Below are positions 24,115-43,073 of a stretch of 64,000 nucleotides of DNA, piece after piece (positions within the stretch are counted from its first letter, which is position 1; each line of letters opens with the position of its first letter). A program made the position numbers and the translations under genes. The stretch is from Halothiobacillus sp. (lineage in GTDB: Bacteria > Pseudomonadota > Gammaproteobacteria > Halothiobacillales > Halothiobacillaceae). The stretch covers positions 1-64,000 of the forward strand of contig JAGUXT010000058.1 in the NCBI GenBank assembly GCA_020061705.1. The letters run 5' to 3'. The notes under the pieces were generated by a model that was not told the DNA's origin, made no database searches, and saw nothing but the letters and a program-made list of their open reading frames with translations.

Positions 24115-24123
24115 ATCAACACA

Positions 24124-24198
24124 GCCACAGAGAGTATGTAGGCCGGATAGGCGCAGTGCATCCAGCCTACTTACAGCGGTCTACGCGTCCTCTGTGGC
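24124..24198. repeat. Nested repeat: short palindrome inside a CCACAGAG...CTCTGTGG element
   Basis: Outer arms GCCACAGAG (24124) and CTCTGTGGC (to 24198) resemble the arms at 27777-27852. Between them is a shortened copy of the other dispersed palindrome, GTAGGCCGGATAGGCGCAG then TGCATCCAGCCTAC (24138-24170). It sits between rfbB and gspE. Confidence 0.8.
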
Positions 24199-24229
24199 AA
24201 AAAACTCTTCCTACCATGCACAATACCCC

Positions 24230-25996: not shown

Positions 25997-27227
25997 ATTT
26001 CGCTATCGCGCCGTCGATCGCGCGCGCCAAGTCAGCGAAGGCGTATTGGACGCGCCGACACAGGATGCCGCGCTCAAGCAACTGCAAGGCCAGGGCATGA
26101 CTCCGATCAGCCTGAGTGCCGACACGGCAAACGCTGCCCCCCTGTTGCAAGGTGGGGCATTAAACGCCCCCAATCGCGCACAAAAAGCCAAACCACCTGG
26201 CGCGGAAGACGTGCTGCGCTTTACCAAGGAGCTCGCCGTGCTGCTGCGCTCCGGCCTGCCGCTGGATCGCGCCATCAAAGTCATGGTCGGCATGAGCGCC
26301 AACCCCAGCCTTGCCGCCGTACTGCAGGACATCCTCGACAACGTCAAGGGCGGGCGCGGCCTCAGCGTGGCACTGCGCAACCACCAAGAGCTGTTCGGCA
26401 ATTTTTACATCAACATGATTCGCTCCGGCGAAGCCAGCGGCCAACTCAGCGATGTTTTAACACGCCTTGGCGACCATCTGGAGCGCGCCAAGAGCCTACG
26501 CCAGAGCGTCACCTCCGCGCTGATCTACCCCAGCATCCTGCTCATCGTCGCCGTACTTTCCATCGCTTTGATGCTCGGTTTCGTCGTCCCGCAATTCAAA
26601 AGCCTGTTTGCCGACATGGGTGACCGCCTGCCGCTGATGACTCAAATCGTGGTTGCTGCCGGGGATGGTATTGCCGCCAATGGCTGGATCATCATCCTCG
26701 TCGCCATCCCATTGTGGTTTCTATGGCAAAACTGGTCTAAAAGCCCACAAGGCCGCGCCACACTCGATCGCGCTATCTTGCGCGCGCCCCTGGTTGGCAC
26801 GGTCGCACTCAAATACAACACAGCCCTGTTCTCGCGCACCATGGGAACTTTGCTGCACAACGGCGTGTCTCTTCTTGAGTCGCTGGGCATTGCCTCCGAC
26901 ACGGTCGGCAACAGCGTATTACGCGAAGCTCTCGCCAGCCTGCCCCCAGCCATCAAACAAGGCGGACGGTTGGCGGCAGCACTCGACAAGACGGGAGTTT
27001 TCCCTGACTCTGCGATTCAAATGATCGCCATTGGTGAGGAAAGCGGACGGTTGGACACGATGTTGCTCGAACTCGCCAATGTCAACGACGATGAAGTGCA
27101 AGCTTCCATCAAACGTGCCCTGACCCTGATGGAACCCCTGCTCATACTCTCGCTTGGTGCCGTGATTGCCCTTATCATCATCTCCATTCTGATGGGCATT
27201 CTCTCGGTCAACGAACTGATTGCCTGA
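25989..27227 (+). CDS. gspF: Type II secretion inner-membrane protein GspF
   Basis: 412 residues, normal for GspF. The start MAKFRYRAVDRARQVSEG and DVLRFTKELAVLLRSGLPLDRAI match the family, and the two halves repeat the T2SSF domain (second copy from LVGTVALKYNTALFSRTMGTLL). Membrane segments are near ALIYPSILLIVAVLSIALMLGFVVP, GWIIILVAIPLWFLW and the C-terminal LLILSLGAVIALIIISILMGIL. It is the polytopic platform protein of the pseudopilus assembly machine. The last membrane segment is followed by the short family ending SVNELIA. Confidence 0.95.
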   Translation: MAKFRYRAVDRARQVSEGVLDAPTQDAALKQLQGQGMTPISLSADTANAAPLLQGGALNAPNRAQKAKPPGAEDVLRFTKELAVLLRSGLPLDRAIKVMVGMSANPSLAAVLQDILDNVKGGRGLSVALRNHQELFGNFYINMIRSGEASGQLSDVLTRLGDHLERAKSLRQSVTSALIYPSILLIVAVLSIALMLGFVVPQFKSLFADMGDRLPLMTQIVVAAGDGIAANGWIIILVAIPLWFLWQNWSKSPQGRATLDRAILRAPLVGTVALKYNTALFSRTMGTLLHNGVSLLESLGIASDTVGNSVLREALASLPPAIKQGGRLAAALDKTGVFPDSAIQMIAIGEESGRLDTMLLELANVNDDEVQASIKRALTLMEPLLILSLGAVIALIIISILMGILSVNELIA

Positions 27228-27259: not shown

Positions 27260-27697
<438 letters not shown>

Positions 27698-27776
27698 TCC
27701 GGCGTACTTTTCTGTTTGCAGGCGTAGGATTGAAAAGCATAGCGCGCTCACCCTGCAAAACGTGGAAAACAAACCA

Positions 27777-27852
27777 GCCACAGAGAGCACAAAGTCACCG
27801 AGGGATGCATCAAACGATTAGCCCTGCTCTTAATCTCCGTGCCCTCCGTGGC
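27777..27852. repeat. CCACAGAG...CTCCGTGG inverted repeat
   Basis: GCCACAGAGAGCACAAAG on the left and CTCCGTGCCCTCCGTGGC on the right form long imperfect arms. This lies between gspG and gspH, and its outer arms match those of the composite element at 24124. Confidence 0.75.
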
Positions 27853-27882
27853 AAAAAGGATTTATTCGCCCACCCATACCCT

Positions 27883-28344
27883 ATGACCCAGACCCAGCGC
27901 GGATTCACCCTGATTGAGCTTATCGCCACCATCACCCTGATGGCCTTGGTGCTCACCACTGCGCCTGCTGCCTACGAAAAAATTCGCGACGCCATGAGTT
28001 TTCGAGCCGCCATTGCTGACACCACCAGCGCCCTCAAGCGCGCGCGCGTCGCCGCTGTACTGCAAGGACATCCGGTTGAACTGGCCGTGCACCTCGAACA
28101 GCACCAGCTGCACACCCCGGGCGAAAAAACCGTATCCATCGACTCACGCATTACCCTCGACATGCACGGTGTTATCAGCCTCAGCAACCCCGACTTGCCT
28201 GTATTTCGTTTTTATCCCGACGGCAGTGCCACTGGCGGTTCACTCACCCTCACTACACCCACGGGACGCGCCCAGCGCATCGAAATCGACTGGTTCACCG
28301 GCCAACTTCTGCTCAGTCACCCACCGACTGAAGCCGCATCATGA
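27883..28344 (+). CDS. gspH: Type II secretion minor pseudopilin GspH
   Basis: 153 residues from ATG 27883. The earlier part of the track ORF (27730 onward) is repeat-derived and lies before the prepilin motif. The leader is six residues and Gly7, then FTLIELIATITLMALVLTTAP with Glu at +5. The region after this, AAIADTTSALKRARVAAVLQGHPVEL, and FYPDGSATGGSLTLT are typical of GspH. It is a minor pseudopilin near the tip of the pseudopilus. It overlaps gspI by four bases (ATGA). Confidence 0.9.
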   Translation: MTQTQRGFTLIELIATITLMALVLTTAPAAYEKIRDAMSFRAAIADTTSALKRARVAAVLQGHPVELAVHLEQHQLHTPGEKTVSIDSRITLDMHGVISLSNPDLPVFRFYPDGSATGGSLTLTTPTGRAQRIEIDWFTGQLLLSHPPTEAAS

Positions 28345-28745
28345 CACGCAACTTCGCCAGTTCACACGGCTTCTCCCTACTCGAAGTCCTGGTAGCTCTC
28401 AGCATCATGGCCATCAGCCTCGGCGTACTCTACCAAACGCAAATCGGCGCCACGCGCAACCTGACCCAAAGCCTCGCGCTCGAGCGCGCCACCCTCTACG
28501 GCCAAAGCATTCTTGCCAATGCCACTGGCGTTGCGGCTGATCACGACATGCTTGAAGGCTCGTTTGAAGATGGTTACCGCTGGCAACTCAGCATCACCCC
28601 CATCGACATCCCGCCACCACCACCCGCCGAAAAACCCATTATTCCCATGCTGCAACTTGATCTCGACATCTTTTGGCTGGAGGGCAACAAAGAGCGACAA
28701 CTACACCTGCAAAGCCTGAGCCGCCCGGCAACGAGTCAACCATGA
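28341..28745 (+). CDS. gspI: Type II secretion minor pseudopilin GspI
   Basis: 134 residues. Leader of 10 residues ending in Gly, then FSLLEVLVALSIMAISLGVLYQ with Glu at +5. The arrangement of a short pilin-like protein with a core helix and ERATLYGQSILAN matches GspI, which together with GspJ and GspK forms the tip complex of the pseudopilus. It overlaps both gspH and gspJ by four bases. Confidence 0.9.
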   Translation: MTRNFASSHGFSLLEVLVALSIMAISLGVLYQTQIGATRNLTQSLALERATLYGQSILANATGVAADHDMLEGSFEDGYRWQLSITPIDIPPPPPAEKPIIPMLQLDLDIFWLEGNKERQLHLQSLSRPATSQP

Positions 28746-29410
28746 GCAAGACTCACGCTAACTTCACCGGATTTTCCACCTCCCCCACGAAAGAGGGGTA
28801 TTGGAGAGAACGAGAGCGTGCGCGCAGTAAAAATCAATCCGGCTTCACTCTCGTTGAAATCATCATCGCCCTAGCCCTCACCGCGCTGATTCTCGCCAGC
28901 CTGAGTGCCGCCCTCTATGGCCTCAGCCAAGGCTTTAGCCATGCCACCGAACGCAGCGCACGCGAAGACATCCTCAACCGCGTCAGTCTTGCCCTGCATC
29001 AAGCAATTGAACAGGCGCGGTACATTGAGCCACCCAACGGCGACCCATCCTTCCACAGCCTGCTCGGCACAGCCGAAAGCCTCGACTGGCTGGCCTATCT
29101 ACCTGAATCATCACCACAAGGCGGTCTGCACCACTGGCACCTCGAACCTCAGGATGGCGAGCTACTTCTTACGCTCACCCAATGGATAGAACCCAAAACC
29201 CAAGTCGAAAACCAGGAGCCCCCAGCTTCCCTGCCCCCCCATCAAGTGATCGGCGACCTCACCGCCTTCAAACTGAGCTACCAAAACGCCAAAACCGGCG
29301 AATGGGTAGACCAGTGGGACGGCCTGCTCCTGCCCGCCCGCATACGCATCGACATCGCCACTCAAGCCTCTGGCACATGGCCGCCCATCATCGTCCGGCT
29401 CGAACCATGA
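28742..29410 (+). CDS. gspJ: Type II secretion minor pseudopilin GspJ with unusually long leader
   Basis: 222 residues from ATG 28742, coupled to gspI. The prepilin site is SG followed by FTLVEIIIALALTALILASL, with Glu at +5, but the leader before it is 34 residues, far longer than the usual 6-15. The stretch STSPTKEGYWRERERARSK is strongly basic at its end and is encoded by a DNA stretch with short inverted blocks (CCTCCCCC / GAGGGG), which looks like an insertion. No other in-frame ATG lies between it and the prepilin site. The rest has the GspJ pattern (LNRVSLALHQAIEQARYIEP, LHHWHLEP). Whether the long leader is processed normally is unknown. Confidence 0.88.
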   Translation: MSKTHANFTGFSTSPTKEGYWRERERARSKNQSGFTLVEIIIALALTALILASLSAALYGLSQGFSHATERSAREDILNRVSLALHQAIEQARYIEPPNGDPSFHSLLGTAESLDWLAYLPESSPQGGLHHWHLEPQDGELLLTLTQWIEPKTQVENQEPPASLPPHQVIGDLTAFKLSYQNAKTGEWVDQWDGLLLPARIRIDIATQASGTWPPIIVRLEP

Positions 29411-30255
29411 CCCGTAGCACCTCACCATCGAAACAACACGGCCTCGCCATGATCGCCGTGCTGTGGATTCTGGTTGCTCTAATGCTCATGGTCAGCAGCT
29501 ACAGCCTGTTTTCCCGCGTTGAAACACGCATGGCCGGCGCGCAGGTTGACCAGGCCAAAGCCAATGCTCTCGCTCTTGGCGGACTCGAGTACATTCAGGC
29601 CTACCTCAAGCAACCCCCGCAAATCAGCAACAAACCACAGCAACAATTCCTGCAACTGCATTTGGGCGAGGGTCGTCTCGACATAACTCTAACCAGCGCT
29701 GCGGGCTTGATCGACCTAAACAAAGCACCCCCAACCTTACTCAAGGATCTGTTCCAAATCGCTGCCGGCATGGACGAGGACAGCAGTGCCATGCTCATTA
29801 ACACACTGCGCCCCGACCCGAGCCAAACCAATGGTGCCCCGCCCCCTGTACTTCGCGACACTCGTGATCTGCGCGGGATGCCAGGAATCACAGAATCCAT
29901 CTATAATGCCGTGCGAAATTTAATCACCGTCGATGCAGACAGCAGCACGGTCAATGCCCACCAAGCCCCGCTAGGTGTGCTTATCGTTCTCGCGCACGGC
30001 AATACCGAACTCGCACAGACCTTCGCCGAATCCCGCATCACCCAAGGCAGCCTCGCAGACACCTCCATGCTCCAAACCAGCTTTCACAGCGAAACCCAAG
30101 CCAACCGCTACCGCCTGGACGTTGACGTCACACTCAACAACGGCCAACGCTACATCCGCCGTTTCTGGCTTTCCTCGCATATTGATATGCGGCTTGGCTG
30201 GCGGGCGCACGCGTTTGAGGCACTGAGAGCGCTCTCAGGCGGAGCCACCCAATGA
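29407..30255 (+). CDS. gspK: Type II secretion minor pseudopilin GspK
   Basis: 282 residues from ATG 29407; the track start at 29182 lies inside gspJ. The 12-residue leader ends with Gly, then LAMIAVLWILVALMLMVSSY. The +5 position is Ala rather than Glu, as is normal for GspK, which caps the pseudopilus tip. The large globular domain contains AAGLIDLNKAPPTLLKDL and LRGMPGITESIYNAV, the helix-hairpin-type segments of this family. It is coupled to gspJ and gspL by ATGA overlaps. Confidence 0.93.
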   Translation: MTRSTSPSKQHGLAMIAVLWILVALMLMVSSYSLFSRVETRMAGAQVDQAKANALALGGLEYIQAYLKQPPQISNKPQQQFLQLHLGEGRLDITLTSAAGLIDLNKAPPTLLKDLFQIAAGMDEDSSAMLINTLRPDPSQTNGAPPPVLRDTRDLRGMPGITESIYNAVRNLITVDADSSTVNAHQAPLGVLIVLAHGNTELAQTFAESRITQGSLADTSMLQTSFHSETQANRYRLDVDVTLNNGQRYIRRFWLSSHIDMRLGWRAHAFEALRALSGGATQ

Positions 30256-31307
30256 ACTTAAGCATGAACGACGTACGTCTCCACCTGACAACCTGGTTCA
30301 ACTGGTGGCTCGGCGGCTGGCAGGATGCTTGGGCGATGCTCCCCAAGCCTGCGGCCCTGCAGACCCGTCCCGCCATATTTCAAACCACGGATGGTGCCCG
30401 CCTCAGCTTTTCTGCCACGGTTAATACTCCTGGAACCTGGTTAAGCATGCATCAGGCAAGCACATCTAACAGCGCACCCCAAGGCGTGTTACTTGCTGAC
30501 GATGATGTTCTGCTGCGCGAATTAAATCTCCCCCCACTCAGCGAGCGCGACATCGCTGCCGCTGTTGCCTTGGATGCACAAATCGCCAGCCCCTTTCCTG
30601 CGAGCGACACCCACTTCGGCTACAGCATCCGGCGTTTAACCAATGGCCAGCGCCAGATTGAAATTGCCCTCATCCGCAAAAGCAAGCTAGAGCAGCTTCA
30701 AATCCAGTACCCCCAGCACGCGCTTTTCGCCCGAGGTGAACGCGGAGCTATCCCTCTGCAAAATGACAACCACGACCGACAAACCGCATGGTATCTCTCA
30801 CCACTCACGCTAGGCCTCAGCATACTTCTCGGCCTTGTACTCATCGCATGGATCATCAGCCCGACGCTCCTGTTGCGCGCCGAGTCCATTGCGCACGAAG
30901 CAGCCTTTGCCAAGCTCAATCGTGCAGCCGCGCCATTGTTACAGAAACGTGAGGAGCTAAGCGCCTTGCAACAGCAGCTAGAAAGCGCCCGTGCCTTCGA
31001 CAATGAGCATCCTGCACCACAGCCCATTCTCGAACAGCTTTCCAGTCACATCCCTGACAGCACCTGGATCAGCCAACTCACTCTTCGCAAAGACCAACTC
31101 ACTCTTGAAGGCAGCTCGGACAACGCCATCGCCATCGTCAGCCTGCTGGAAAAAATTCCCGCATTAAAAGAAGTGCGTCTTGGTGCCAGCATTAACCGCG
31201 ACCCGCGCAATGGACGCGAAACCTTCCAGATTCTTGCGCGCATCCAGGCCAGCACCCCCAGCAGCACCCTAGCCAAAAGCACACAAGCTAATGGAGCCAA
31301 ACCATGA
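30252..31307 (+). CDS. gspL: Type II secretion protein GspL (PilM/PilN-like)
   Basis: 351 residues. The cytoplasmic N-terminal part (about 1-175) has a reduced PilM-like region, LLRELNLPPLSERDIAAAVALDAQIASPF. One membrane segment follows (LGLSILLGLVLIAWIISPTLLL), then a coiled coil (residues about 210-250) and a periplasmic PilN-like domain with STWISQLTLRKDQLTLEG. GspL links the ATPase GspE to the pseudopilins and to GspM. It is shorter than the enterobacterial proteins, as seen in the Xps type. Assignment rests on position, topology and weak sequence pattern. Confidence 0.78.
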   Translation: MNLSMNDVRLHLTTWFNWWLGGWQDAWAMLPKPAALQTRPAIFQTTDGARLSFSATVNTPGTWLSMHQASTSNSAPQGVLLADDDVLLRELNLPPLSERDIAAAVALDAQIASPFPASDTHFGYSIRRLTNGQRQIEIALIRKSKLEQLQIQYPQHALFARGERGAIPLQNDNHDRQTAWYLSPLTLGLSILLGLVLIAWIISPTLLLRAESIAHEAAFAKLNRAAAPLLQKREELSALQQQLESARAFDNEHPAPQPILEQLSSHIPDSTWISQLTLRKDQLTLEGSSDNAIAIVSLLEKIPALKEVRLGASINRDPRNGRETFQILARIQASTPSSTLAKSTQANGAKP

Positions 31308-31885
31308 TTCCTTTGCTGCACCAACACCGTGCTTGGCTCGCACCACTACTAACCCTAATCGTCACCCTGCTCTTGCTTGTCGCTATTTTCATTCCGCTCG
31401 CCGCTAAACAAAACCAGTACAACACCATCATCCAAAAAAGTCAGCCGCGTATTGAGCGGGTTCAGGGGCTGCTTGCCGCTGCACCACAACTCGAAAACCA
31501 ACTGAACGCTGCGCGCGTAACGGCACAAGCCCAGCTTTACCCAAACACCAGCGATGAAAACCGCCTCAATACCGAACTTCAAACCCGCCTACGCAACCTT
31601 GCGCAGCAAAGCGGCCTGACCGTCGGCAGCCTACGCGCACTCCCTTCGCGTAAAGAGCTCAACCTTGAGGTTCTCCTTTTAAACCTCAGCCTGCAAGGCG
31701 GCTTGACTGAGTTTCAAAAATTCATCGACGCCGTACAACACCCATCTGAGGCGGCTCCTGCCCTGCGCATTGACAACCTCATCTTGCGCCGCGCAAGTAT
31801 CGTACCCAACACGCCGCAGACCCTCGCCATTGACATCACGGTTGCTGCGCTACAGCCTGCCTCGAATCAAACGGCTACACCATGA
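31304..31885 (+). CDS. gspM: Type II secretion protein GspM
   Basis: 193 residues. One N-terminal membrane segment (LAPLLTLIVTLLLLVAIFIPL), a periplasmic coiled-coil stretch (IERVQGLLAAAPQLENQL), then a ferredoxin-like domain (LSLQGGLTEFQKFIDAVQ, ALRIDNLILRRASI). This is the GspM_b/PilO-like pattern. It would pair with GspL at the inner membrane. It is coupled to both neighbours by four-base overlaps. Confidence 0.78.
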   Translation: MIPLLHQHRAWLAPLLTLIVTLLLLVAIFIPLAAKQNQYNTIIQKSQPRIERVQGLLAAAPQLENQLNAARVTAQAQLYPNTSDENRLNTELQTRLRNLAQQSGLTVGSLRALPSRKELNLEVLLLNLSLQGGLTEFQKFIDAVQHPSEAAPALRIDNLILRRASIVPNTPQTLAIDITVAALQPASNQTATP

Positions 31886-32508
31886 AGCTTTACCACCACA
31901 ACCTCATCCTGCTGACCCTGTTACTTATTAGCAGTCTTGGCCTCGCCGCGTGGTGGAGTGCCCAACTGCGCCCCCTTAACAACTTAAGCTGGAAAGCGAT
32001 CCCTCCAGAAATACCTGCTTTACCAATTTTCGACACTGCCCCGATTGCCAGCAGCAATCAAAGCCTGGAGCGCCCCATTTTCTGGGAAAGTCGCCGCCCA
32101 CAGGCTCCTCAGAAAAATGTCATGCCCCCCATCGCAGCACCCGTGCCGATGGAGCTCCTGGGCATTGTTAGTGAAGGCAATCAGCGCGTCGCCCTTTTAC
32201 GTCCGCTCCAGGGTACGCCGCCCCTTCTCGTACGCCGCATGCACCAGGGCGAAAGCTATAACGGAATGACCATTCAACGCATTGACAACGATCGCGTCAC
32301 CCTTGATAGCGCCAATGGCCCGCAAATCATCCCCCTCAAGCGCGGCAGTCAAAACCCCAATGCCAACAAACCCGCCAAACTCAGTGCACCACAAACCATC
32401 GAAACGACGCGCAGCAAGCTCCCGGACGCACTGCAACAACGCATTGACGAACTCAAAAACAAAGCCGCGCAGCAAGCTCAACAACCTGTCGCCGCACCAC
32501 CTCCATAA
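31882..32508 (+). CDS. Type II secretion protein N/C (XpsN-like, GspC analogue)
   Basis: 208 residues. A single N-terminal membrane segment (LILLTLLLISSLGLAAWWSA), a Pro-rich linker, and a homology-region-like domain (MELLGIVSEGNQRVALLRPLQGTPPLLVRRMHQGES...IQRIDNDRVTLDSANGPQIIPL), which is the pattern of the GspC HR domain that contacts the secretin. A Gln/Ala/Pro-rich tail replaces a PDZ domain. In xps of Xanthomonas the gene at this position is xpsN, which does the job of GspC. It stands directly before gspD. Confidence 0.72.
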   Translation: MKLYHHNLILLTLLLISSLGLAAWWSAQLRPLNNLSWKAIPPEIPALPIFDTAPIASSNQSLERPIFWESRRPQAPQKNVMPPIAAPVPMELLGIVSEGNQRVALLRPLQGTPPLLVRRMHQGESYNGMTIQRIDNDRVTLDSANGPQIIPLKRGSQNPNANKPAKLSAPQTIETTRSKLPDALQQRIDELKNKAAQQAQQPVAAPPP

Positions 32509-32566
32509 GTTGGGGCTTGCCCCTTAAACCTGATACAACCATATTTTGCCAAGGACTTCACAACAC

Positions 32567-34804
32567 ATGACCACCCCGATCCCTTTCCGCCTCAGCCTCC
32601 TTACATTCGCCATATTTCTCGTTGGCTGCAGCACGACAGGTACCACGCCACCCAACACATTCAGTGAAATCACCGGCAACAACCCACCATCTGCTGTAAG
32701 CAAACCTGCACCCGAAAACAAAGACAGCACCAGCCCAACCAACACTGACAGCCGCACCCAAGACCGCCTCTACCCTGGCAATGACCGCGTGGTTGACCTG
32801 CCCAAAGCCCGCCTCAGCCCTACCGCACAGGGCGGTGAAGGGGTCATGCTGAATTTTGAACGTGCACCACTGGTCGATGTAATTCACACCATTCTCGGCG
32901 AAGTACTCAAGGTACCCTACAGCATTGACCCCAACGTCAAGGGCGAAGTTGTGCTGCATACCAGCCAGCCCACACCGCTAGCCGACCTGCCTAGCGTGCT
33001 TGATACTGTGCTTCTAGCCAACGGCGCGGTACTGCGTATCGACGATACCGGCTTCTATCGCGTCGGCCTCGCTGACACCATGAAAAACCTGCCCCCCAGC
33101 CTGCGCAGTGCCTCCAACAAAACCGGGCAAGCCATCACCATCATTCCCCTGCGCTACATTGGCGCGCAGGACATGGCTGACATTCTCAAACCCGTCGCAG
33201 CCCCCGAAGCCTTCATGCGCGTCGACACCACACGCAACCTGATTGTCATGATCGGTACACAGAACCAATCCCAAGCCTGGATGGAGCTGGTCAAAACGTT
33301 CGATGTCGACTTTATGCGCAGCATGTCCGTGGGTATCTTTCCGCTCGAATACTCCGACGTCAAGGAAACCGCCAAAGCGATCGAAATGCTCATCGGCAGT
33401 GACCCCAAAACCACCGGCGGTATCGTGCGCGTCATGCCGATTGAGCGCCTCAACAGCCTCTTCATTGTCACACCCCGCAAAAATTATCTCGACCAGATTC
33501 GCCAATGGGTTGCACGGCTAGACCAAGCCCCAGATAACGCCATCGAACCCAGCCTCTACGTCTATCCCGTTCAAAACGGCGATGCCACTCGCATGGCCAA
33601 AACCCTCGGCAATCTATTCGGCAGTGGCTCAAGCACAAGCACCGGCACACGCGGCACCACTGCACCAGGCCTGAGCGAAAGTGCCATCAGCGCTACATCG
33701 GGCAACACCAGCGGTACAGGCAGCAGCTCCTCCGACAGTAATTTGAGCACTCAAGGCAGCAGCAGTGGTGGAGCTGGGCTCGGAACAGGTATTGGCAGCA
33801 CAACAGGAAGTACCGGCAGCAGCACCCAAAACAACACTCCCACCGCCGTCAGCATTGGTAAAAACATCCGCGTTGTGGCTGATGAGGACAATAACGCCTT
33901 ACTCATCTACGCCCCACGCCGCGAATATCGCCGCATCGAAAGTGCCATTCGCCAACTGGATGTTGCACCCGTTCAAGTTCTCATCGAAGCCAGCATTGTC
34001 GAAGTAACGCTCAGCGACAAATTCCAGTTTGGCCTCCAGTGGTATTTCACCAACGGCTTTGGCGGTAGCCTAAGCAACTTCAGCGGTGCTGGCGGGTTTG
34101 TCAACGCCGCCAGTGGCGTGGAAGGTCTCCCCGTGCTTACCCCTGCTGCGCCGTTGGTACCCGGGCTCAACTACATCATCAGCAACGCCCAGGGCAACAT
34201 CCAAGCGGTACTCAACGCCCTATCATCAGAAACCAGTCTCAAAGTTGTCTCTAGCCCATCCATGCTGGTACTCGACAACCAAAAGGCCGAAATGCAGGTC
34301 GGCTCGCAGGTTCCCATCCAGACATCAACAACCTTCTCTCAACTTGGCCTGCCAACAACATCTTTTGAATACAAAGATACCGGTGTGCTACTCACCGTCG
34401 TACCACGCATTAATGCTGGCGACATGGTCACGCTTGATGTTCTTCAAAAAGTCACCGATATCGGACCCATCGACAGCGCTACAAAACAGCGCAGCTTCCT
34501 TCAACGCAGTATGAAAAGCCGTATTGCTGTACAAAGCGGTCAAACCGCTATCCTTGGAGGGTTGATCCGCGACGGCAAAGAAAATAGCCGCAACGGCATC
34601 CCTGGTCTCGTCGACATCCCCATGCTCGGCTATTTGTTTGGCACCACAGAAAAAAACAAAGACCGCACTGAGCTCATTGTCCTCCTCACCCCGCGCGTTA
34701 TGGAAAACATGACCCAAACGCAACAAATCACCGAAGAAATCCGCAGCAAACTATTCCAAACCAACAGCCTGCGCCAGCCCCTCTCCAGCCAATTCGCCCC
34801 CTAG
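32567..34804 (+). CDS. gspD: Type II secretion outer-membrane secretin GspD (lipoprotein)
   Basis: 745 residues from ATG 32567; AAGGA lies 12 bases upstream. The signal peptide ends in a lipobox LVGC (Cys21), so the protein should be lipid-anchored, as in XpsD. Domains: N0 (MLNFERAPLVDVIHTILGEVL), N1-N3 with repeats such as YIGAQDMADILKPVAAPE and PLEYSDVKETAKAIEMLIG, and the secretin channel (QVLIEASIVEVTLSDKFQFGLQW, VVSSPSMLVLDNQKAEMQVGSQVPIQ, YKDTGVLLTVVPRINAGDMVTLDVLQ, RTELIVLLTPRVM). A Ser/Gly/Thr-rich insert of about 75 residues (349-425) lies in the N3 region. It forms the outer-membrane pore for folded exoproteins. Last gene of the cluster. Confidence 0.96.
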   Translation: MTTPIPFRLSLLTFAIFLVGCSTTGTTPPNTFSEITGNNPPSAVSKPAPENKDSTSPTNTDSRTQDRLYPGNDRVVDLPKARLSPTAQGGEGVMLNFERAPLVDVIHTILGEVLKVPYSIDPNVKGEVVLHTSQPTPLADLPSVLDTVLLANGAVLRIDDTGFYRVGLADTMKNLPPSLRSASNKTGQAITIIPLRYIGAQDMADILKPVAAPEAFMRVDTTRNLIVMIGTQNQSQAWMELVKTFDVDFMRSMSVGIFPLEYSDVKETAKAIEMLIGSDPKTTGGIVRVMPIERLNSLFIVTPRKNYLDQIRQWVARLDQAPDNAIEPSLYVYPVQNGDATRMAKTLGNLFGSGSSTSTGTRGTTAPGLSESAISATSGNTSGTGSSSSDSNLSTQGSSSGGAGLGTGIGSTTGSTGSSTQNNTPTAVSIGKNIRVVADEDNNALLIYAPRREYRRIESAIRQLDVAPVQVLIEASIVEVTLSDKFQFGLQWYFTNGFGGSLSNFSGAGGFVNAASGVEGLPVLTPAAPLVPGLNYIISNAQGNIQAVLNALSSETSLKVVSSPSMLVLDNQKAEMQVGSQVPIQTSTTFSQLGLPTTSFEYKDTGVLLTVVPRINAGDMVTLDVLQKVTDIGPIDSATKQRSFLQRSMKSRIAVQSGQTAILGGLIRDGKENSRNGIPGLVDIPMLGYLFGTTEKNKDRTELIVLLTPRVMENMTQTQQITEEIRSKLFQTNSLRQPLSSQFAP

Positions 34805-35111: not shown

Positions 35112-35140
35112 TTGACTAAACCCTGCTGAACCCCTTAAAT
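35112..35140 (+). promoter_or_regulatory. Candidate sigma-70 promoter
   Basis: TTGACT, 17 bases, TTAAAT. Spacing is ideal and the match is four or five of six in each box. It would give a leader of about 140 bases for the secreted-protein gene at 35285. Confidence 0.45.
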
Positions 35141-35213
35141 CACACCCAAGCCAAATCTGCGTCAGCAGCGAGGCCTGGCATGAAAAGCAACAATCCTGTT
35201 GTGAAGCATGACC

Positions 35214-35256
35214 AGATCGGTTAACTTAAAACCGATTTTCGTCACCCGAGCGAAAA
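35214..35256 (+). promoter_or_regulatory. Two hairpins in the 5' leader
   Basis: ATCGGTT/AACCGAT with a short loop, directly followed by ATTTTCG/CGAAAAT with loop TCACCCGAG. They end about 18 bases before GAGGAT, the ribosome site of the next gene. Such leaders can stabilise abundant mRNAs; a regulatory role is inference. Confidence 0.5.
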
Positions 35257-35284
35257 TTTAACTTTCCCCAACGAGGATTTGACC

Positions 35285-36292
35285 ATGAACTTGAAGATGA
35301 AAACTCTGGCAGCTGCCATGATCGCCGCTGGCACCCTGGGCACTGCCCAAGCCTCTTCCGTACTGTTCCCGTATGTTGTAAACGGTGGTTCAGTGACCAC
35401 TGTCGTTACTGTTGTCGATGTCAACTATGCTTATGCCACGGGCTACGCCAACCTGCTGCACTGGGCTCTGTGGTATAAGGATGGCGCCAATGCCGAGAAA
35501 AATGACGCAGCTTGCCAAGAAGTCAACCAGTGGTTGCCATCTTCCAGCAACGACGTTCAGACTGTTGACCTCGGCGGCAAGTTCGGCAGCACCACCAAAG
35601 GTGTTCTGTTCAACGACCCAAGCATCAACAACAACTGGAAAGCCAGCAACAAGCGTTTCGATATGGCCAACTTGGCATCAAAGCCTTTGCGTGGTTACCT
35701 GTTGGTTGACGATGAGTTCTATGTTGGAAGCATGGACACGCCACTCCTCGAAGGCGAAGCAATGGTATTTGAATTCGCCACTGGCGCATCTTGGGGCTAC
35801 ACCGCTGGACGTTCTGTTAACCAGAACTTCCTGAACGACAGCGACATTACCTTCACCAGCGGCCAGAACGTAAGCATCAAGCCTTGGGGTGAGACCACCA
35901 CCAAGTTCTTTGTTACTCCGATTGACGTCAATATGTTCAACGGCAACAACGCAGCTGACACCAAGAAGCTTGCTTCTATTCAACTGCAACGTGCTGGCGT
36001 AGTCATGTATGACCGCGATGAAAACCCAGTTTCAGGTAGCGTACCGCAAGGCGTGAACTGCGTTGGCTCAGTAGATGCAAAAACATTGGTTACATCTTCT
36101 GCACTGACCCTTCTTCCTGACGGCGGCTGGGGTCAGTTGAACTCCATCTTGGGTCAAGGTACCGTAGGTATCAACGGCGAGAAGGAAACCGTTTCAGCAG
36201 TTTCCGTGATCAAGCTGGACTACAACAGCGGCGCGAAATTCAACGGCGAAGCTGTAACTGGCACCTTCAACAACGCATTCCAACTGCGTTAA
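35285..36292 (+). CDS. Secreted protein of unknown function, probably abundant
   Basis: 335 residues from ATG 35285 (GAGGAT upstream; the track's 35279 is a TTG). A Sec signal peptide KMKTLAAAMIAAGTLGTAQA is followed by SSVLFPYVVNGGSVTTVVTVV. No membrane segment follows and the mature protein is rich in Asn, Gly, Thr, Val and aromatic residues, as in beta-rich exported proteins. I do not recognise the family. Two Cys are visible in the mature part (AACQEV and GVNCVG), which could pair in the periplasm. Codon choice favours codons typical of strongly expressed genes (AAC, AAG, GGT, GTT) more than neighbouring genes. It sits directly after the type II operon, and a strong terminator follows. 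It may be a type II substrate or an envelope protein. Confidence 0.85.
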   Translation: MNLKMKTLAAAMIAAGTLGTAQASSVLFPYVVNGGSVTTVVTVVDVNYAYATGYANLLHWALWYKDGANAEKNDAACQEVNQWLPSSSNDVQTVDLGGKFGSTTKGVLFNDPSINNNWKASNKRFDMANLASKPLRGYLLVDDEFYVGSMDTPLLEGEAMVFEFATGASWGYTAGRSVNQNFLNDSDITFTSGQNVSIKPWGETTTKFFVTPIDVNMFNGNNAADTKKLASIQLQRAGVVMYDRDENPVSGSVPQGVNCVGSVDAKTLVTSSALTLLPDGGWGQLNSILGQGTVGINGEKETVSAVSVIKLDYNSGAKFNGEAVTGTFNNAFQLR

Positions 36293-36318
36293 TTGCTGAT
36301 TTAGGTTAGGATATTGAC

Positions 36319-36346
36319 AAACCGCCCTTCGGGGCGGTTTTTTTTT
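36319..36346 (+). terminator. Rho-independent terminator
   Basis: AACCGCCC TTC GGGGCGGTT followed by eight or more T. It lies 27 bases after the secreted-protein stop; a classic strong terminator. Confidence 0.95.
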
Positions 36347-36430
36347 GATGAAATTTGCCCCCATTGCTAGAGGATGTCGTCATGACATTGGGCGCAAACT
36401 CCTTCACGGATCAACCAGCGTGCGTATCCC

Positions 36431-36500
36431 GTAGGAGCGACCATGGCCGCGAACAGCAAGGTGCGTAATTCGCCCCATTCGCGGACAAGCCCGCTCCTAC
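36431..36500. repeat. REP-like inverted repeat pair
   Basis: GTAGGAGCGACCATGGCCGCGAA on the left and TTCGCGGACAAGCCCGCTCCTAC on the right, 24 bases apart. It lies in the 356-base gap between the terminator and the lipoprotein gene. Apart from this element I see nothing supported in that gap. Confidence 0.85.
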
Positions 36501-36702: not shown

Positions 36703-38487
36703 ATGCGTATCCGCCTTGTCATAGCCAGCCTTGTTATTGCTTCGTCACTCACGCTCATTGCCTGCTCGCAGGATAACGCCCCCAAAACCCAGACCACATG
36801 GTTAACTCCAACACCTATCGGTCTGCGCGATGATTGGAAAATTGCTAACAACACGAAAGAAAATGGAGCATGGGTTGCTTACTATCAAGGCAAGAGCAGC
36901 TTATTTTTAAAGTCACCGCAAGGGCAGCCGCAAATGCTGGTGGATGGTGCAAGCGGTGCTGCGCCATCAGGGCTGGCTTTAGCACTAAACCAAGCCAATA
37001 CCCCTGCAACAATGTGGCGCGACAAAGTTCCAAGCAAAGGACTATATCTAAAACAAGGCGAGAGCGCGCCACTCGAAATCGGCGTTGAAGGCTTCGATAC
37101 TGAACCCTTAGCGCGGTTTGACCTCAAAGCAGACCTTGCGGGTAGCACTCCGCAAGGCTGGCATGTACTTTGGTACGGGGAACGCTTCGTCCCTGAGTCC
37201 AATAGTAAATACAACCTCTATTATCGACATATCGATGCCCAAGGCACACCGGGAACTACACAGCGGTTAATGCCTGGGTTTTACCCACAATGGATTGTGG
37301 GCGCAAATAACGAAGTTGCCGTCTTCAGCTGGGACAACACACAAAAACCACCACAAGTGTTGATGCGCCTGCGTGACGCGAAAGATGGGCAATTCACAGC
37401 AAGCAAAGTAATCGCCACCACTACGCCAGACATTCCTCCGCTGTTCCGCGCCTTCCGCTTGGCTGATCGCTGGTTTGTCACCTGGATTGACCAGCAGGGT
37501 GAAAGTAGCACAGATTTTCTGCTGCGCGGGATGTGGTCGGACGACCATGGGGCAAACTGGAAGGGCTTCGACTTCCCAACGATCAGAGGTTTCGACATCG
37601 CAGATGTCCGTATTGCGCATGATGCTGGCAGCAAGCACGCCATCATGAGCATTTCAGGCACTTGGCGCATTAAGGATCCCAGCGCATCCAACGCGTTCTA
37701 CATCGCTCATAGTGCGGACAACGGAGCGACTTGGAGCGAACCGAAAATCATCCGTGATGCCCAGGCGGCCAGGACCAGCCGTGCTGAGGCTGCTCAGGTT
37801 TTCTTTGGTGACGAGCCGGGGAGCACATGGGTGGTTTGGGAGGATTGGCGTGATGTGCGTGGCCGCCTGTATTTTTCTTATAGCGAGAACTATGGAGAGA
37901 GCTGGCTTCACAGCAATCTACCCCTCGCAGGACAACCTGATGGCAATAACCTGATTGCATTCAACAGAGAAGTCAGTTACCGCGACTCCAAGGGATTGCA
38001 TCTTGTCGCGGAAAATGTAACTAGCGATGCAGGGCAGGAAAAGCGCGTATTCTCTCTGCCGCTCGATACCCACGTTATTGATGCTTCAGCTAAGGCGAAA
38101 CCCGTTTCCCAATTGAGTGAGAGCTCACTGAGGTCACGCATCGAGACCTACTGGAAATTCATGTCGGAAGGCAATTTTGACGCAAGTTATGCCTTGTTTG
38201 ACCCCTTCATGCGCGCCGCTTGGCCTGCCGTTCTTTATAAGCAACGGCTTGGGATCATCAAATACAAGCCTGAGATCATCATCGACCGCGTGGATATCAA
38301 TGGTAATTTTGCCGACATTGACCTTCGCGTGCGTGCGTTCGTGCCCGAATTTGAAATGGCTGGAAAAAAGCAGGGAGCCCCCGAACGTGAGGTTGAGATT
38401 CGCGAGCGCTGGGTGTTTATCGATGGCAACTGGTTCCGTGAGTACTTCGAGGAAGGCTCCAATCTGCGCTTTACCCGCTATCGCTAG
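36703..38487 (+). CDS. Asp-box (BNR-like) lipoprotein, sialidase-fold candidate
   Basis: 594 residues. The signal peptide ends in lipobox LIAC (Cys21), so it should be a lipoprotein; Ser at +2 favours the outer membrane. Three Asp-box motifs (S-x-D-x-G-x-x-W) are visible: SDDHGANWKG, SADNGATWSEP and SENYGESWLHS, as in six-bladed propellers of sialidases and related proteins. The catalytic Arg triad of sialidases could not be confirmed. A C-terminal domain of about 130 residues (LRSRIETYWKFMSEGNFDASYALFDPF) resembles NTF2-like folds. It may bind or act on surface glycans. No ribosome site is obvious. It precedes the Wzm/Wzt exporter genes. Confidence 0.85.
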   Translation: MRIRLVIASLVIASSLTLIACSQDNAPKTQTTWLTPTPIGLRDDWKIANNTKENGAWVAYYQGKSSLFLKSPQGQPQMLVDGASGAAPSGLALALNQANTPATMWRDKVPSKGLYLKQGESAPLEIGVEGFDTEPLARFDLKADLAGSTPQGWHVLWYGERFVPESNSKYNLYYRHIDAQGTPGTTQRLMPGFYPQWIVGANNEVAVFSWDNTQKPPQVLMRLRDAKDGQFTASKVIATTTPDIPPLFRAFRLADRWFVTWIDQQGESSTDFLLRGMWSDDHGANWKGFDFPTIRGFDIADVRIAHDAGSKHAIMSISGTWRIKDPSASNAFYIAHSADNGATWSEPKIIRDAQAARTSRAEAAQVFFGDEPGSTWVVWEDWRDVRGRLYFSYSENYGESWLHSNLPLAGQPDGNNLIAFNREVSYRDSKGLHLVAENVTSDAGQEKRVFSLPLDTHVIDASAKAKPVSQLSESSLRSRIETYWKFMSEGNFDASYALFDPFMRAAWPAVLYKQRLGIIKYKPEIIIDRVDINGNFADIDLRVRAFVPEFEMAGKKQGAPEREVEIRERWVFIDGNWFREYFEEGSNLRFTRYR

Positions 38488-38614: not shown

Positions 38615-38726
38615 CGTCAATTCACGGAGTGTCAGACCGGGTCAATGATTTAGCGTATGACACAGCGCCCTTAGGTGCTGTTTTTTGTTTTCCTTTCCCG
38701 AATACTTCATCTTTCCTCATCAACCT

Positions 38727-39515
38727 ATGCACAAACTTTTTCCCTTGCTTCGCCCTCTCCTACTGCGGGAATGGCGTGAAACCTACGCAGGCTCGCTGCT
38801 CGGTGGCGCATGGAATCTTGTCCAACCACTCTTGTTCGTATTGCTGTATTGGTGGGTGTTTAGCGCGGTGTGGAAAATGCGCCTGCCTGCATCAAGCGCC
38901 GATGGCAGCGAGTTGCCGTATATCGTGTTTTTGCTTAGCGCCATGCTGCCGTGGATGGCATTCCAGGAGAGCCTAGTGCGCGGAGTGTCGTCTGTAGTCT
39001 CAAAAGCCGATGTACTGCGCCATAGCCCTTTCCCCGCCACGCTCTATCCACTGTCGCGCGTACTGGCAGCGCATGGCACCTTTGTACTGGTGATGCTGGT
39101 CGCGTGGGCAGCGCTGTGGGCGGCGGGAATGATGCCAACTAGCCCATGGATGCTGCTGGTCGCGCTGCTATGGCTGGGTTTGCAGGCCTTGTTTGCGCTC
39201 GGCCTAGCTTGGCTTTTGGCGGCATTGGCGGTGTATTTGCGCGATTTAATCCATGCGGTCGCCATGGTGATGACTTTTTTATTGTTTACCGCGCCCATTC
39301 TTTACCCGCTTAGCCAAGTACCCGCAGATTGGCGGGCTGTGGTGTGGATGAACCCTTTTACGCCATTTGCAGAAGGTTTTCATGCGATTTTGTTGCACGG
39401 AACCATGCCTTCGATATTGAGTCTGGGCTTGGGTTTCGCTTACACCGCTTTGGCGCTTTTGCTGGGCTACAGCCTGTTTCGCAAGCTGCAAGCGGGGTTT
39501 GTGGATGTTTTGTGA
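38727..39515 (+). CDS. wzm: O-polysaccharide ABC exporter permease Wzm
   Basis: 262 residues from ATG 38727; the track start at 38685 is a TTG. It has six hydrophobic segments and the ABC-2 permease pattern LLLREWRETYAGSLLGGAWNLVQPLLFVLLYWWVF, LPYIVFLLSAMLPWMAFQESLVRG, then VLRHSPFPATLYPLSRVLAAH and FTPFAEGFHAILLHG. With Wzt it moves an undecaprenyl-linked polysaccharide across the inner membrane. In P. aeruginosa, wzm and wzt export the D-rhamnan A-band; the gmd-rmd-GT genes here are 28 kb away. A palindrome of 68 bases separates it from wzt. Confidence 0.9.
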   Translation: MHKLFPLLRPLLLREWRETYAGSLLGGAWNLVQPLLFVLLYWWVFSAVWKMRLPASSADGSELPYIVFLLSAMLPWMAFQESLVRGVSSVVSKADVLRHSPFPATLYPLSRVLAAHGTFVLVMLVAWAALWAAGMMPTSPWMLLVALLWLGLQALFALGLAWLLAALAVYLRDLIHAVAMVMTFLLFTAPILYPLSQVPADWRAVVWMNPFTPFAEGFHAILLHGTMPSILSLGLGFAYTALALLLGYSLFRKLQAGFVDVL

Positions 39516-39528
39516 GTCTGCACATCTC

Positions 39529-39596
39529 GTAGGGTGGATAAGCGCAGCGCATCCACCAAGGGCGCTCGGTGGATGCGCTGCGCTTATCCGCCCTAC
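39529..39596. repeat. Long palindromic element between wzm and wzt
   Basis: GTAGGGTGGATAAGCGCAGCGCATCCACC at 39529 and GGTGGATGCGCTGCGCTTATCCGCCCTAC to 39596, nearly perfect arms of 29 bases. It is related to the element at 10613. Its presence inside a two-gene operon could lower wzt expression or stabilise wzm mRNA. Confidence 0.9.
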
Positions 39597-39608
39597 AATA
39601 TCTAAGTC

Positions 39609-40775
39609 ATGACAAATATTCCCGCTTTTCGCTTAACCGAGACCAGCAAATCCTATGCGGTGTACGCGCATCCGCTTGACCGTCTTAAGGAGTTGTTTTC
39701 CACCCGCCCACGCCATCGTTTGTTTACCGCATTGCACCCCTTGTCGCTAGATATCCCGCAAGGGAGTTCGTTGGGGATTGTTGGCGATAACGGCGCAGGC
39801 AAGAGTACGCTGATGCACTTGCTGGCGGGCACACACACGCCCACCAGCGGCACAATCGAACGCAACGGGCGCATCCTTGGCTTGCTTGAACTGGGCGTAG
39901 GCTTTCACCCAGAGTTCAGCGGGCGCGATAACCTGCTATTTCAGGGCGATATTTTGGGCATTGATCGCGGCTTTATCCAAGAGAGGATGCAGGACATTCT
40001 TGATTTTGCAGAGATTGGTGAGTTCATAGACCAGCCATTACGCACCTACTCAACTGGCATGAAAGTCAGACTTGCCTTTGCTTTGATTGCTTCACTCGAC
40101 CCGGACACGCTAATTGTGGATGAGGCACTGGCGGTCGGGGATATGCACTTTCAAAAAAAATGTATCGATCGAATGACCTCCTTCCGCGAAGCTGGAAAGA
40201 CCATCATTTTGTGTTCGCATAGTCTTTATCAAATTGAATCCTTCTGCGACGAGGTTATTTGGCTAAGGAATGGGCACCTAGAAATGTCTGGCTCGGCGAG
40301 TGTGGTTTTACCAGCTTACGAACGCTATCAACTGACCAAGACGTTACCCGCCGTTGAGCATGCAGCGGTACCCTCAGGCCAGCCCTTCATTCGGCGATTT
40401 GAATTACTATCCCCCCGGCCTTTGTCCATGGGGCAACATATGCTCATGGAGTGGGAAATTGAAGCGCCAATCGACACCCCCCACCACTACACACTTTCAT
40501 TAAAAATGGAGAACGGGCGCGGAGTGCATGTAACCGGCTCCCGCCTGCGCGAGGAGGCTCCACGCAAGGGTTCCGGGGTAGAACGCGCTCAGTTCGAAAA
40601 CATCCCTCTGGCTTCAGGATTTTTCATGCTGCATTTGCGATTGTGGGATGAAACTGGCCTCGTGCTGATGCACGAGCGCGTGCTGGAAAACATTGAAGTT
40701 CGCAAAAACGACCGTGAGCTTGGCTTTATGCGTATTCCTTTTGCCAGCCAATGGGTGCCTGATGCAAAAAGCTAA
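39609..40775 (+). CDS. wzt: O-polysaccharide ABC exporter ATPase Wzt with C-terminal glycan-binding domain
   Basis: 388 residues. ATPase domain 1-240: Walker A GDNGAGKST, signature YSTGMKVRLAFA, Walker B DTLIVDEALAVGD and switch His in CSHSLYQIE. Residues about 250-388 form a beta-rich extension (FELLSPRPLSMGQHMLMEWEIEAP, SGFFMLHLRLWDETG) like the Wzt carbohydrate-binding domain, which in known systems recognises the modified end of the finished chain. This suggests an O-antigen whose length is set by a terminal modification. The GT4 gene downstream overlaps it by 14 bases. Confidence 0.92.
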   Translation: MTNIPAFRLTETSKSYAVYAHPLDRLKELFSTRPRHRLFTALHPLSLDIPQGSSLGIVGDNGAGKSTLMHLLAGTHTPTSGTIERNGRILGLLELGVGFHPEFSGRDNLLFQGDILGIDRGFIQERMQDILDFAEIGEFIDQPLRTYSTGMKVRLAFALIASLDPDTLIVDEALAVGDMHFQKKCIDRMTSFREAGKTIILCSHSLYQIESFCDEVIWLRNGHLEMSGSASVVLPAYERYQLTKTLPAVEHAAVPSGQPFIRRFELLSPRPLSMGQHMLMEWEIEAPIDTPHHYTLSLKMENGRGVHVTGSRLREEAPRKGSGVERAQFENIPLASGFFMLHLRLWDETGLVLMHERVLENIEVRKNDRELGFMRIPFASQWVPDAKS

Positions 40776-41925
40776 AGCCGACTCGAAACCAGTCTTGCTC
40801 TGGGTGCTTGCTTCCGATGCTTTCGGAGGCGCCGAGGCTCTTTCGCATGGCTGTCTTCGGGAGTTGATGCCACATTTTGAGATAGTTTTGCTGACCCAAG
40901 AGGCCTTAGTAACTCACTTCAGCTTACTTGACTTGCGCATACACACATTCGAGCACGAAGGACTGAATACGCCGCACGCCTACAATGCGCGGAACATGTG
41001 GCGCTATGCGCGCACCATTGCCTTTGTCGCAAGACAAAAGAAAGCCGATGTTATCCATGCCGTCATGCACAATGCCTCGTTGTTTTTGGCTCTGGCTCGC
41101 TGGCTGGCTCCCCTATCCATGCGCGGCAGGCGAAGTGTGGGCAGCCTGCACGGGTCATTACAAGGTTTTTACCAAAGCATCGGTCGTGCTCCGTCTTCGC
41201 TCGAACGCTTTGCAATATCCTTTACCGCCTTTACGCTAGATAAGGTCATTACCCCCTCCAAAGGGATAGCTCATGAACTTCATTCAATCTTCAGAGTGCC
41301 AAAAAGCAGATTGATGCCTATTTACAACGGGATTGATCTTCAGGATGTACAAAGGCGATCTTGCGAATTTCGCGTGGAAAAAAAACGCGAGCACTGGATT
41401 GTAGGGTGTGGTCGTCTCGAAGCTCAGAAAGATTTTGATGTTTTGATCCATGCTTTTCGGGCATTCCGGCTCCAGCACAAAAACCTTCCTGCACGACTTG
41501 TTTTAATTGGTGATGGCTCGGAAAAAATACGACTGCAACAACTTTGCGTTGAGCTTGAAATTCAAGGTGCAGTTCAGTTTGCTGGGTTTCAATCCAACCC
41601 TTACCCATTGATTGCTGCTGCCGATGTTTTGGTTCTACCGTCACGCTACGAAGGCTTCGGCCTAGTTTTGGTCGAGGCCATGGTGCTTGCTGTCCCGGTG
41701 ATAGCCAGCGACTGCCCCTGGGGTCCAGGTGAGATTATTGAAAACGGAGAAAGCGGCCTACTCTTTCAAGTTGGACACGCCGAGCAACTGGCATCCAGGC
41801 TTGAACAAGTTTTACTCAATACTGAGCTTGCAGCACGCCTTAGCAAGGCCGGTCAAGCGCGCGCAGAGTTCTTCCAGATCGCTCGCATGGCTGAAGAATA
41901 TGCAAAAGCCTTTCTCCAGAATTAG
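40762..41925 (+). CDS. Glycosyltransferase family 4
   Basis: 387 residues from ATG 40762, which overlaps wzt; the track start at 40693 lies well inside wzt and adds no homology. Features are WVLASDAFGGAEALSHGCL at the acceptor side, IYNGIDLQD, VGCGRLEAQKDFDVLIHAFRAF, VLIGDGSEKIRLQQLC, VQFAGFQSNPYPLIAAADVLVLPSRYEGFGLVLVEAM. The last is the GT4 donor motif with two Glu. It probably adds a sugar to the polysaccharide exported by Wzm/Wzt. Donor and linkage are unknown. Confidence 0.87.
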   Translation: MQKAKADSKPVLLWVLASDAFGGAEALSHGCLRELMPHFEIVLLTQEALVTHFSLLDLRIHTFEHEGLNTPHAYNARNMWRYARTIAFVARQKKADVIHAVMHNASLFLALARWLAPLSMRGRRSVGSLHGSLQGFYQSIGRAPSSLERFAISFTAFTLDKVITPSKGIAHELHSIFRVPKSRLMPIYNGIDLQDVQRRSCEFRVEKKREHWIVGCGRLEAQKDFDVLIHAFRAFRLQHKNLPARLVLIGDGSEKIRLQQLCVELEIQGAVQFAGFQSNPYPLIAAADVLVLPSRYEGFGLVLVEAMVLAVPVIASDCPWGPGEIIENGESGLLFQVGHAEQLASRLEQVLLNTELAARLSKAGQARAEFFQIARMAEEYAKAFLQN

Positions 41926-41939
41926 CGAGAGCCTAAACA

Positions 41940-43073
41940 ATGCCCGGCATACCTGTCCGCGTCTTGATTTTTCTGCCCACTACAGGTTTTGGCGGTGCCG
42001 AGCGCACCATACTAAACCTTATTACACACACTGACTCTTCTCAGGTCGAGATCGTACTTGTCACGCATGCTGTTGTTTATTCAGGGGTATCGGTGCCGGT
42101 TTTAGACCTTTCGGACTACGGTCTAGCCAGCGGCTATGCAGGAATTCGTCGAACTTGGCGAGATGCTTTCCGCCTAGTCCAGCTAGCACGAGAACACAAA
42201 TGCCAAGTGATTCTTGGCTTTTTGCATTACGGTGCCATTGCCGCAAGCTGGGCTCGCCTCCTGTCAGGCAACCAGATCAAGGTCATCGCCAGTCCTCGAA
42301 CCCCATCCCGTGCTGGCATAGCATTCCATGTTCCCACCCAAAGAGCCCGCCTGGAGTGGCATGCACAGGTGAATGTACTCGCTCGCCTTGCGCATCGGGT
42401 AATCGTGGCGACTGAAGGCCTGAAAACGGAGCTTGTAGAGCACTACGGCGCGCGCAAAGAACATATTCATGTCATTGCCAACGCCATGGATAAGGAACGG
42501 ATCGCATCCATTGCGGCCACCAAGATTGAAAAGGATATCCCTTTGATCGTGACCTCCGGGCGTCTTGCTCCTGAGAAAGACATAGGCACCCTATTGCACG
42601 CTTTTGCCCTGGTTCGCGCCCAAATGCCTTGCCGCTTGACTCTGCTCGGCGAAGGCCCTGAACGCAGCGCCCTGGAAGCTACAGCACGTGAGCTAGGGGT
42701 GGATCAAGACGTGGTTTTCCACGGCTTTCATGCGGAGCCCTTCGCCATTATCAAGTCCGCTGATGTCTTTGTGCATACATCTCGATTCGAAGGGTTTGGC
42801 AACGTGCTGATCGAGGCCATGGCATGCAGCGTGCCCATCGTAGCCACCGACTGCGACTTTGGCCCTAGGGAAATCATCCAGCATGGCGAAAATGGCCTGC
42901 TCGTCCCACCAAACGATCCCGATGCGCTTGCACTGGCCATCCTGACGGTACTCAACGACCACGCGCTCGCCGCACGCATGGTCGAGTCAGCCAATACCGG
43001 GCTGGGGCGCTATGCGCCAAACGTAATGACCCGAGACTATGAGAGAGCCATCATTGATCTGGCTCAGGGTTAA
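41940..43073 (+). CDS. Glycosyltransferase family 4
   Basis: 377 residues. The N-terminal VLIFLPTTGFGGAERTILNLI is the GT4 acceptor loop. The donor side shows TSGRLAPEKDIGTLLHAFALV, LTLLGEGPERSALEATAREL, VVFHGFHAEPFAIIKSADVFVHTSRFEGFGNVLIEAM and CDFGPREIIQHGENGLLV. It resembles N-acetylgalactosaminyl- or glucosyl-transferases in general form, but no specificity can be assigned. It is similar enough to the gene just upstream to suggest an old duplication. It ends within the first copy of a 12-base tandem repeat. Confidence 0.87.
   Translation: MPGIPVRVLIFLPTTGFGGAERTILNLITHTDSSQVEIVLVTHAVVYSGVSVPVLDLSDYGLASGYAGIRRTWRDAFRLVQLAREHKCQVILGFLHYGAIAASWARLLSGNQIKVIASPRTPSRAGIAFHVPTQRARLEWHAQVNVLARLAHRVIVATEGLKTELVEHYGARKEHIHVIANAMDKERIASIAATKIEKDIPLIVTSGRLAPEKDIGTLLHAFALVRAQMPCRLTLLGEGPERSALEATARELGVDQDVVFHGFHAEPFAIIKSADVFVHTSRFEGFGNVLIEAMACSVPIVATDCDFGPREIIQHGENGLLVPPNDPDALALAILTVLNDHALAARMVESANTGLGRYAPNVMTRDYERAIIDLAQG

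Follow-up and report, generated by a model that had tools for sequence, protein, structure and literature searches.

A rare exported protein next to an accessory type II secretion system in Halothiobacillus, a candidate for a new surface-coat family

Background

S-layers exported by a dedicated type II secretion system (T2SS) are already known, and we will start with the three loci which are closest to the one described here. In Aeromonas an O-antigen cluster which also has rml genes contains vapA and its dedicated T2SS, placed between wzm and wzt (PMC4483657). The gene npdA adjoins one of two gsp clusters, and its deletion mutant loses the S-layer as seen by cryo-EM (PMC10765051); this nanopod family is present in Delftia, Acidovorax, Paracidovorax and various Beta- and Gammaproteobacteria, and in Delftia the assembly of NpdA depends on LPS (PMC10765051, PMC3110197). 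In Pseudoalteromonas slr4 lies immediately 3' of a T2S operon (PMC7821379).

We have studied a window of 64,000 nt of Halothiobacillus sp. (GenBank assembly GCA_020061705.1, contig JAGUXT010000058.1, positions 1 to 64,000), where this locus anatomy is repeated around a gene which we call X. As in the VapA A-layer (Sps T2SS), the secretion system and the candidate coat gene form one block amid Wzm, Wzt and rml O-antigen genes. Unlike here, the T2SS and vapA are inserted between wzm and wzt, and no BNR/NTF2 partner has been described; VapA has about 49 kDa and mature X 33.4 kDa, and the likeness of the two is one of locus. NpdA shares with X a signal peptide, the absence of conserved domains, a gene linked to one gsp cluster out of two, and a spread over environmental Proteobacteria, sulphur oxidisers included. 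It is larger, 52–61 kDa, its likeness is again one of locus and description, and its published ortholog lists contain neither Lamprobacter nor Competibacteraceae nor a BNR/NTF2 partner; we do not claim X as a member of that family. Slr4 is also a hypothetical beta-rich protein without domains, encoded directly after the T2S operon; it differs by its predicted beta-helical fold (X looks like a beta-sandwich), its 57 kDa and its marine host, and it is likened to X by locus.

Gene X and its product

35285..36292, + strand: gene X, exported all-beta protein of 335 aa, candidate S-layer or surface-coat subunit
36319..36348, + strand: intrinsic terminator of X, from its hairpin and fold shuffles

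The start of X is the ATG at 35285, where the N termini of the homologs align; they do not support an in-frame TTG two codons 5' of it. A Shine-Dalgarno-like GAGGA precedes the ATG. Codons 1–23 read as a typical Sec signal peptide, MNLKMKTLAAAMIAAGTLGTAQA/SS, which the alignment shows to be kept across homologs. The mature protein has a pI of 4.66 and two conserved Cys. The whole family has a pI of 4.0–4.7, two Cys, low Lys and 26–35% of Ser, Thr, Asn and Gly: it is acidic, poor in Cys and Lys and, according to low-confidence models, rich in beta structure, which is an S-layer type of composition. Forty columns of the family alignment are invariant, including the two Cys and a motif DRDExPxSG.

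No match was found for X in Pfam and NCBIfam, either as a single sequence or as a profile, and sequence and profile searches of PDB chains gave none at E<=1. Two AlphaFold models obtained from different queries (pLDDT 47) are all-beta, with N and C halves which look like beta-sandwiches; by eye the two halves look alike. Foldseek gave no match at E<=0.001 with either model (best E 0.057 and 0.026), and the top matches, beta-sandwiches of a fimbrial lectin and of viral capsids, were taken as noise and discarded as a structural assignment.

Codon use is strongly adapted. We have taken atpA and atpD as reference, since ribosomal protein L2, which was sought for this purpose, was not found in the assembly. 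Among 330 ORFs in about 450 kb of the same genome X ranks ninth, with a CAI of 0.709 (mean 0.589, sd 0.057), alongside enolase, atpA, atpD and petABC-like (bc1-complex-like) genes. From this adaptation X is apparently a very abundant protein. The fifth rank among the 330 belongs to a DUF4214-type ORF cut by the edge of the window (1–690, - strand; MATATETRDYFTKLYLAAFLRAP...), which is another possible very abundant protein. Two large adjacent proteins at 10818–16506 also have DUF4214, together with DUF5122 beta-propeller arrays; one of them has an RTX-like calcium repeat.

X is an isolated monocistronic unit with a strong intrinsic terminator. At 36319–36340 it has a 9-bp stem, in which 6 pairs are GC, a TTCG loop and 8 T; its fold z-score is -3.6, and no equally stable fold occurred in 200 shuffles. 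Just past it, at 36433–36500, there is a REP-like inverted repeat, GTAGGAGCG...CGCTCCTAC.

An initial annotation of this region had proposed a possibly very abundant exported protein of unfamiliar family, tied to the T2SS, with a good ribosome site, biased codons and a perfect terminator. These features are supported: abundance, as far as it can be inferred, by codon use; the unfamiliar family by the searches, where the clear match to a common periplasmic family named as a possible refutation was not found in Pfam or NCBIfam; and the tie to the T2SS by a linkage in 11 of 11 genomes, described below.

The region upstream of X

35112..35140, + strand: weak promoter-like boxes, TTGACT (35112), 17-base spacing, TTAAAT (35135), 9/12 consensus matches
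35150-35174, 35175-35215 and 35216-35236, + strand: structured 5' region of X with three hairpins, from folding
35187..35203, no strand: palindrome GCAACA-ATCC-TGTTGTG, probable operator, with a promoter-spacer counterpart in ten Competibacteraceae homologs

The promoter-like boxes and the two leader hairpins of the initial annotation stand only in part. The boxes exist with their 17-base spacing, but they make a poor promoter: with 9 of 12 consensus positions they miss the key A at -11, and a promoter scanner found none in this region, while shuffles of the region give 0.5–2.2. The leader is indeed structured, as 35150–35240 folds at -33.5 kcal/mol (z -4.9, no equally stable fold in 200 shuffles), but it has three hairpins, and the core of the main one is the palindrome at 35187–35203, better read as operator-like.

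This reading comes from the homologs. Ten of them in Competibacteraceae share the upstream element TTGACA-[G/A]CAACA-NNN-TGTTGTG-TA[G/A]AATCCACA. This is a promoter close to consensus, 104–160 bases ahead of the start, and its spacer of 16 bp forms a palindrome. There the palindrome would stay untranscribed, and we therefore take it, and probably its counterpart in the window, as the site of a regulator and not as an RNA hairpin. In the register of the Competibacteraceae promoter the window palindrome has a poor -35 and a poor -10. Upstream of its own X, Lamprobacter has TTGACAACAACA-N10-TATTGT.

The window gave no Rfam match, and the leader of X is unique in the genome; a known RNA element and a repeated one were thus both rejected for the leader. 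Other genomic CAACA-N4-TGTTG sites do not define a regulon of X: they belong to a repeated element with the palindrome CGACGCAACATNNATGTTGCGTCG (L025 12395, L029 8287, L034 341 and L038 41). One copy adjoins a transposase gene, and the element looks like a mobile or miniature one.

The accessory secretion system

23864..27227, + strand: accessory GspE and GspF; the true start of GspE is downstream
27260..29410, + strand: accessory pseudopilins GspG, H, I and J, from family matches
29182..30255, + strand: accessory GspK, divergent, start uncertain
30252..31307, + strand: accessory GspL, PilN-like
31304..31885, + strand: accessory GspM, Xps subtype b
31882..32508, + strand: accessory GspC/N-like protein, weak GspC match (25 bits)
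32546..34804, + strand: accessory T2SS secretin GspD

The type II operon that had been noticed next to X is complete (E, F, G, H, I, J, K, L, M, C/N-like and D) and adjoins X at its 5' side. It is the second T2SS of the genome, distinct from the general one on another contig (C4), which matches the T2SS of the same genus; X is thus downstream of a gsp cluster which is one of two. We checked 11 X-positive genomes, and each of them has the accessory GspD, usually a few kilobases 5' of X on the same contig; together with the conserved signal peptide this linkage would fit export by the neighbouring system. X does not mark every accessory T2SS, as the accessory GspD is also found in many X-negative genomes. 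In one genome of the same genus (L104, G002 C30) the accessory gspD stops at a contig end. The accessory GspK is so divergent that PF03934 could not serve to mark this system.

The accessory system is of the Xps type (subtype b): its GspM is XpsM/T2SSM_b, its minor pseudopilins are nearest to XpsH and XpsI and its GspL is PilN-like. The classical Xps exports many hydrolases; here, by contrast, a second system is confined to a single slot for a secreted protein. Its GspE (23864–25996) has an MshE-type c-di-GMP-binding domain above cut-off, and export of the coat may accordingly be under c-di-GMP control.

The downstream partner and the polysaccharide genes

36703..38487, + strand: BNR/beta-propeller-like exported lipoprotein with a C-terminal NTF2-like domain, obligate neighbour of X
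38685..40775, + strand: ABC-2 polysaccharide exporter, Wzm/Wzt-like pair
40693..43073, + strand: two glycosyltransferases, group 1/GT4-like, the first by family match, the second by reading and by homologs in L001–L003
53540..55786, - strand: TPR and GT41 O-GlcNAc-transferase-like protein, with a homolog beside X in relatives
20671..24114, + strand: rmlACDB-type dTDP-sugar genes, upstream of the accessory T2SS

The BNR matches of the lipoprotein fall below curated cut-offs. In 39 Competibacteraceae it is found in 9 genomes and X in 10, the missing case being a contig end; one further genome (G406) has a weak partial BNR match only. Among 57 relatives it is present, like X, only in the genome of the window. 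Wzm/Wzt exporters are linked to X wherever the flank is covered, and in relatives the GT41-like gene sits between gspD and X. At 48020–53307 the polysaccharide region of the window also codes for two large proteins which have HAD-like hydrolase domains; in one of them these are fused to a glycosyltransferase.

Distribution of the family

X is rare. Its closest homolog, with 46%, is found in Lamprobacter modestohalophilus; those of Competibacteraceae and Contendobacter have 32–36%, and about a quarter of the Competibacteraceae carry it (10/39). None was found in 56 relatives of the window's genome. Two of 369 genomes searched in the class have X, the window's genome being one of them, and it is the only one among 399 genomes searched in the phylum. 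No relatives were found in viruses, plasmids or phages, which had been considered as an origin. In one Competibacteraceae genome (G425; L012 1381–4185, - strand) a giant repeat-containing protein of adhesin or surface type, with an open frame of 2635 aa, has an X-like domain at its C-terminal end; the domain is therefore not exclusively an S-layer unit.

The slot after gspD

The presence of the accessory GspD in X-negative genomes led us to search the slot that X occupies. In X-negative Competibacteraceae with the accessory T2SS the gene after gspD codes for another exported protein, X2, of 344–430 aa, which like X is an isolated unit with its own terminator. Behind X2 come an FG-GAP propeller, a PpiC-type isomerase and a small NTF2-like protein, and then GT41, Wzm and Wzt. 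In G005, which belongs to the window's own family, the accessory gspD precedes an X2-type protein and an NTF2-like lipoprotein, with other genes between.

X2 appears to be a remote homolog of X. The profiles of the mature proteins match colinearly from the N-terminus with a score of 43, while 60 column shuffles reach at most 23.3 and the reversed profile 20.1. With signal peptides included the match is inflated to 94.7%; when they are removed it is 47–64%, which still greatly exceeds the shuffles. The NTF2-like domains of the two loci match at 97.8% (E 1.3e-12; shuffles <=2.3%). Given X2 in the same slot and the matching NTF2 domains, we consider the T2SS to be tied to the slot, that is to one secreted protein with propeller and NTF2-like helpers.

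A more general reading is tentative: the accessory T2SS locus could be an S-layer cassette that keeps its secretion system, GT41 and the polysaccharide exporter, while the coat protein is replaced jointly with the propeller partner that matches it: X goes with BNR-NTF2, and X2 with FG-GAP, PpiC and NTF2-like proteins. If true, such a system for swapping coats would have propeller/NTF2 proteins as dedicated assembly factors, which are not described for any S-layer.

Discussion

Beyond the initial annotation, we have found that the neighbouring T2SS is a second copy, that X has an obligate BNR/NTF2-like partner, that its slot is shared with X2 and that the arrangement is that of S-layer loci. 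A dedicated T2SS, an apparently abundant, acidic, beta-rich protein, Wzm/Wzt and rml genes match the anatomy of the VapA, NpdA and Slr4 loci, and since this anatomy is repeated in the window we propose a surface coat which is exported through a T2SS of its own. The place of X in the genome, its composition and its signature of expression support the idea that it works like an S-layer protein; that it represents a new family of S-layer or surface-coat proteins exported in this way we hold with moderate confidence. Three points stand against an S-layer: X is small for such a protein (33 kDa when mature), its models, at pLDDT 47, find no fold match by Foldseek, and an X-like domain also ends the giant protein of adhesin type.

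According to this proposal, X would fold in the periplasm after Sec export into two beta-sandwich domains with one disulphide. Judging by the linkage, it would then leave through the accessory T2SS and not through the general one, and its copies would assemble over the outer face of the cell into a dense coat. The coat may be anchored to, or nucleated on, the polysaccharide made and exported by the rml, glycosyltransferase and Wzm/Wzt neighbours; the BNR propeller/NTF2 protein might help in export, assembly or anchoring, and a regulator which binds the palindrome probably controls the promoter.

The same locus evidence, with polysaccharide genes all around, also fits an abundant extracellular-matrix or polysaccharide-binding protein which uses the accessory T2SS and is shed or matrix-bound, with no lattice. 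Many carriers of X are Competibacteraceae, which are granule formers, and the giant surface protein ending in an X-like domain is in agreement with such a role. We find it the less probable explanation: such highly adapted codons and a dedicated T2SS are more in keeping with a bulk coat, and vapA, npdA and slr4, the three genes best studied in a slot of this kind, are all S-layer genes.

X might also stay in the cell, in the periplasm or associated with the outer membrane, its T2SS neighbourhood being just a shared polysaccharide island. A signal peptide alone does not prove that the outer membrane is crossed, and some accessory T2SS loci lack X; however, it is the remote homolog X2 that fills the slot where X is missing; what goes with the T2SS is thus the slot as such, and we consider this location unlikely. 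That X is a receptor, a carrier or an enzyme which the T2SS secretes and which acts with the BNR protein on an external substrate is the least likely of all: BNR proteins do include sialidases and other glycosidases, and the two genes are obligate neighbours, but X has no enzyme family match and an all-beta composition rich in Gly, Ser, Thr and Asn, the BNR matches are below curated cut-offs, and the propeller of the X2 locus is of a different type, FG-GAP, which points to assembly and not to catalysis.

In the literature searched, we found neither the family of X nor its propeller/NTF2 partner nor a slot with such exchange. Homology is a poor guide to S-layer proteins; here it is the logic of the locus which leads to a candidate coat-protein family not described before, to a remote sister family and to helper proteins that are conserved. 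The carriers of X are environmental bacteria, among them a cultured photosynthetic sulphur bacterium and granule-forming bacteria from wastewater. Two questions become open to test: by what means an S-layer subunit is recognised by a T2SS, and whether propeller and NTF2-like proteins act as S-layer assembly factors.
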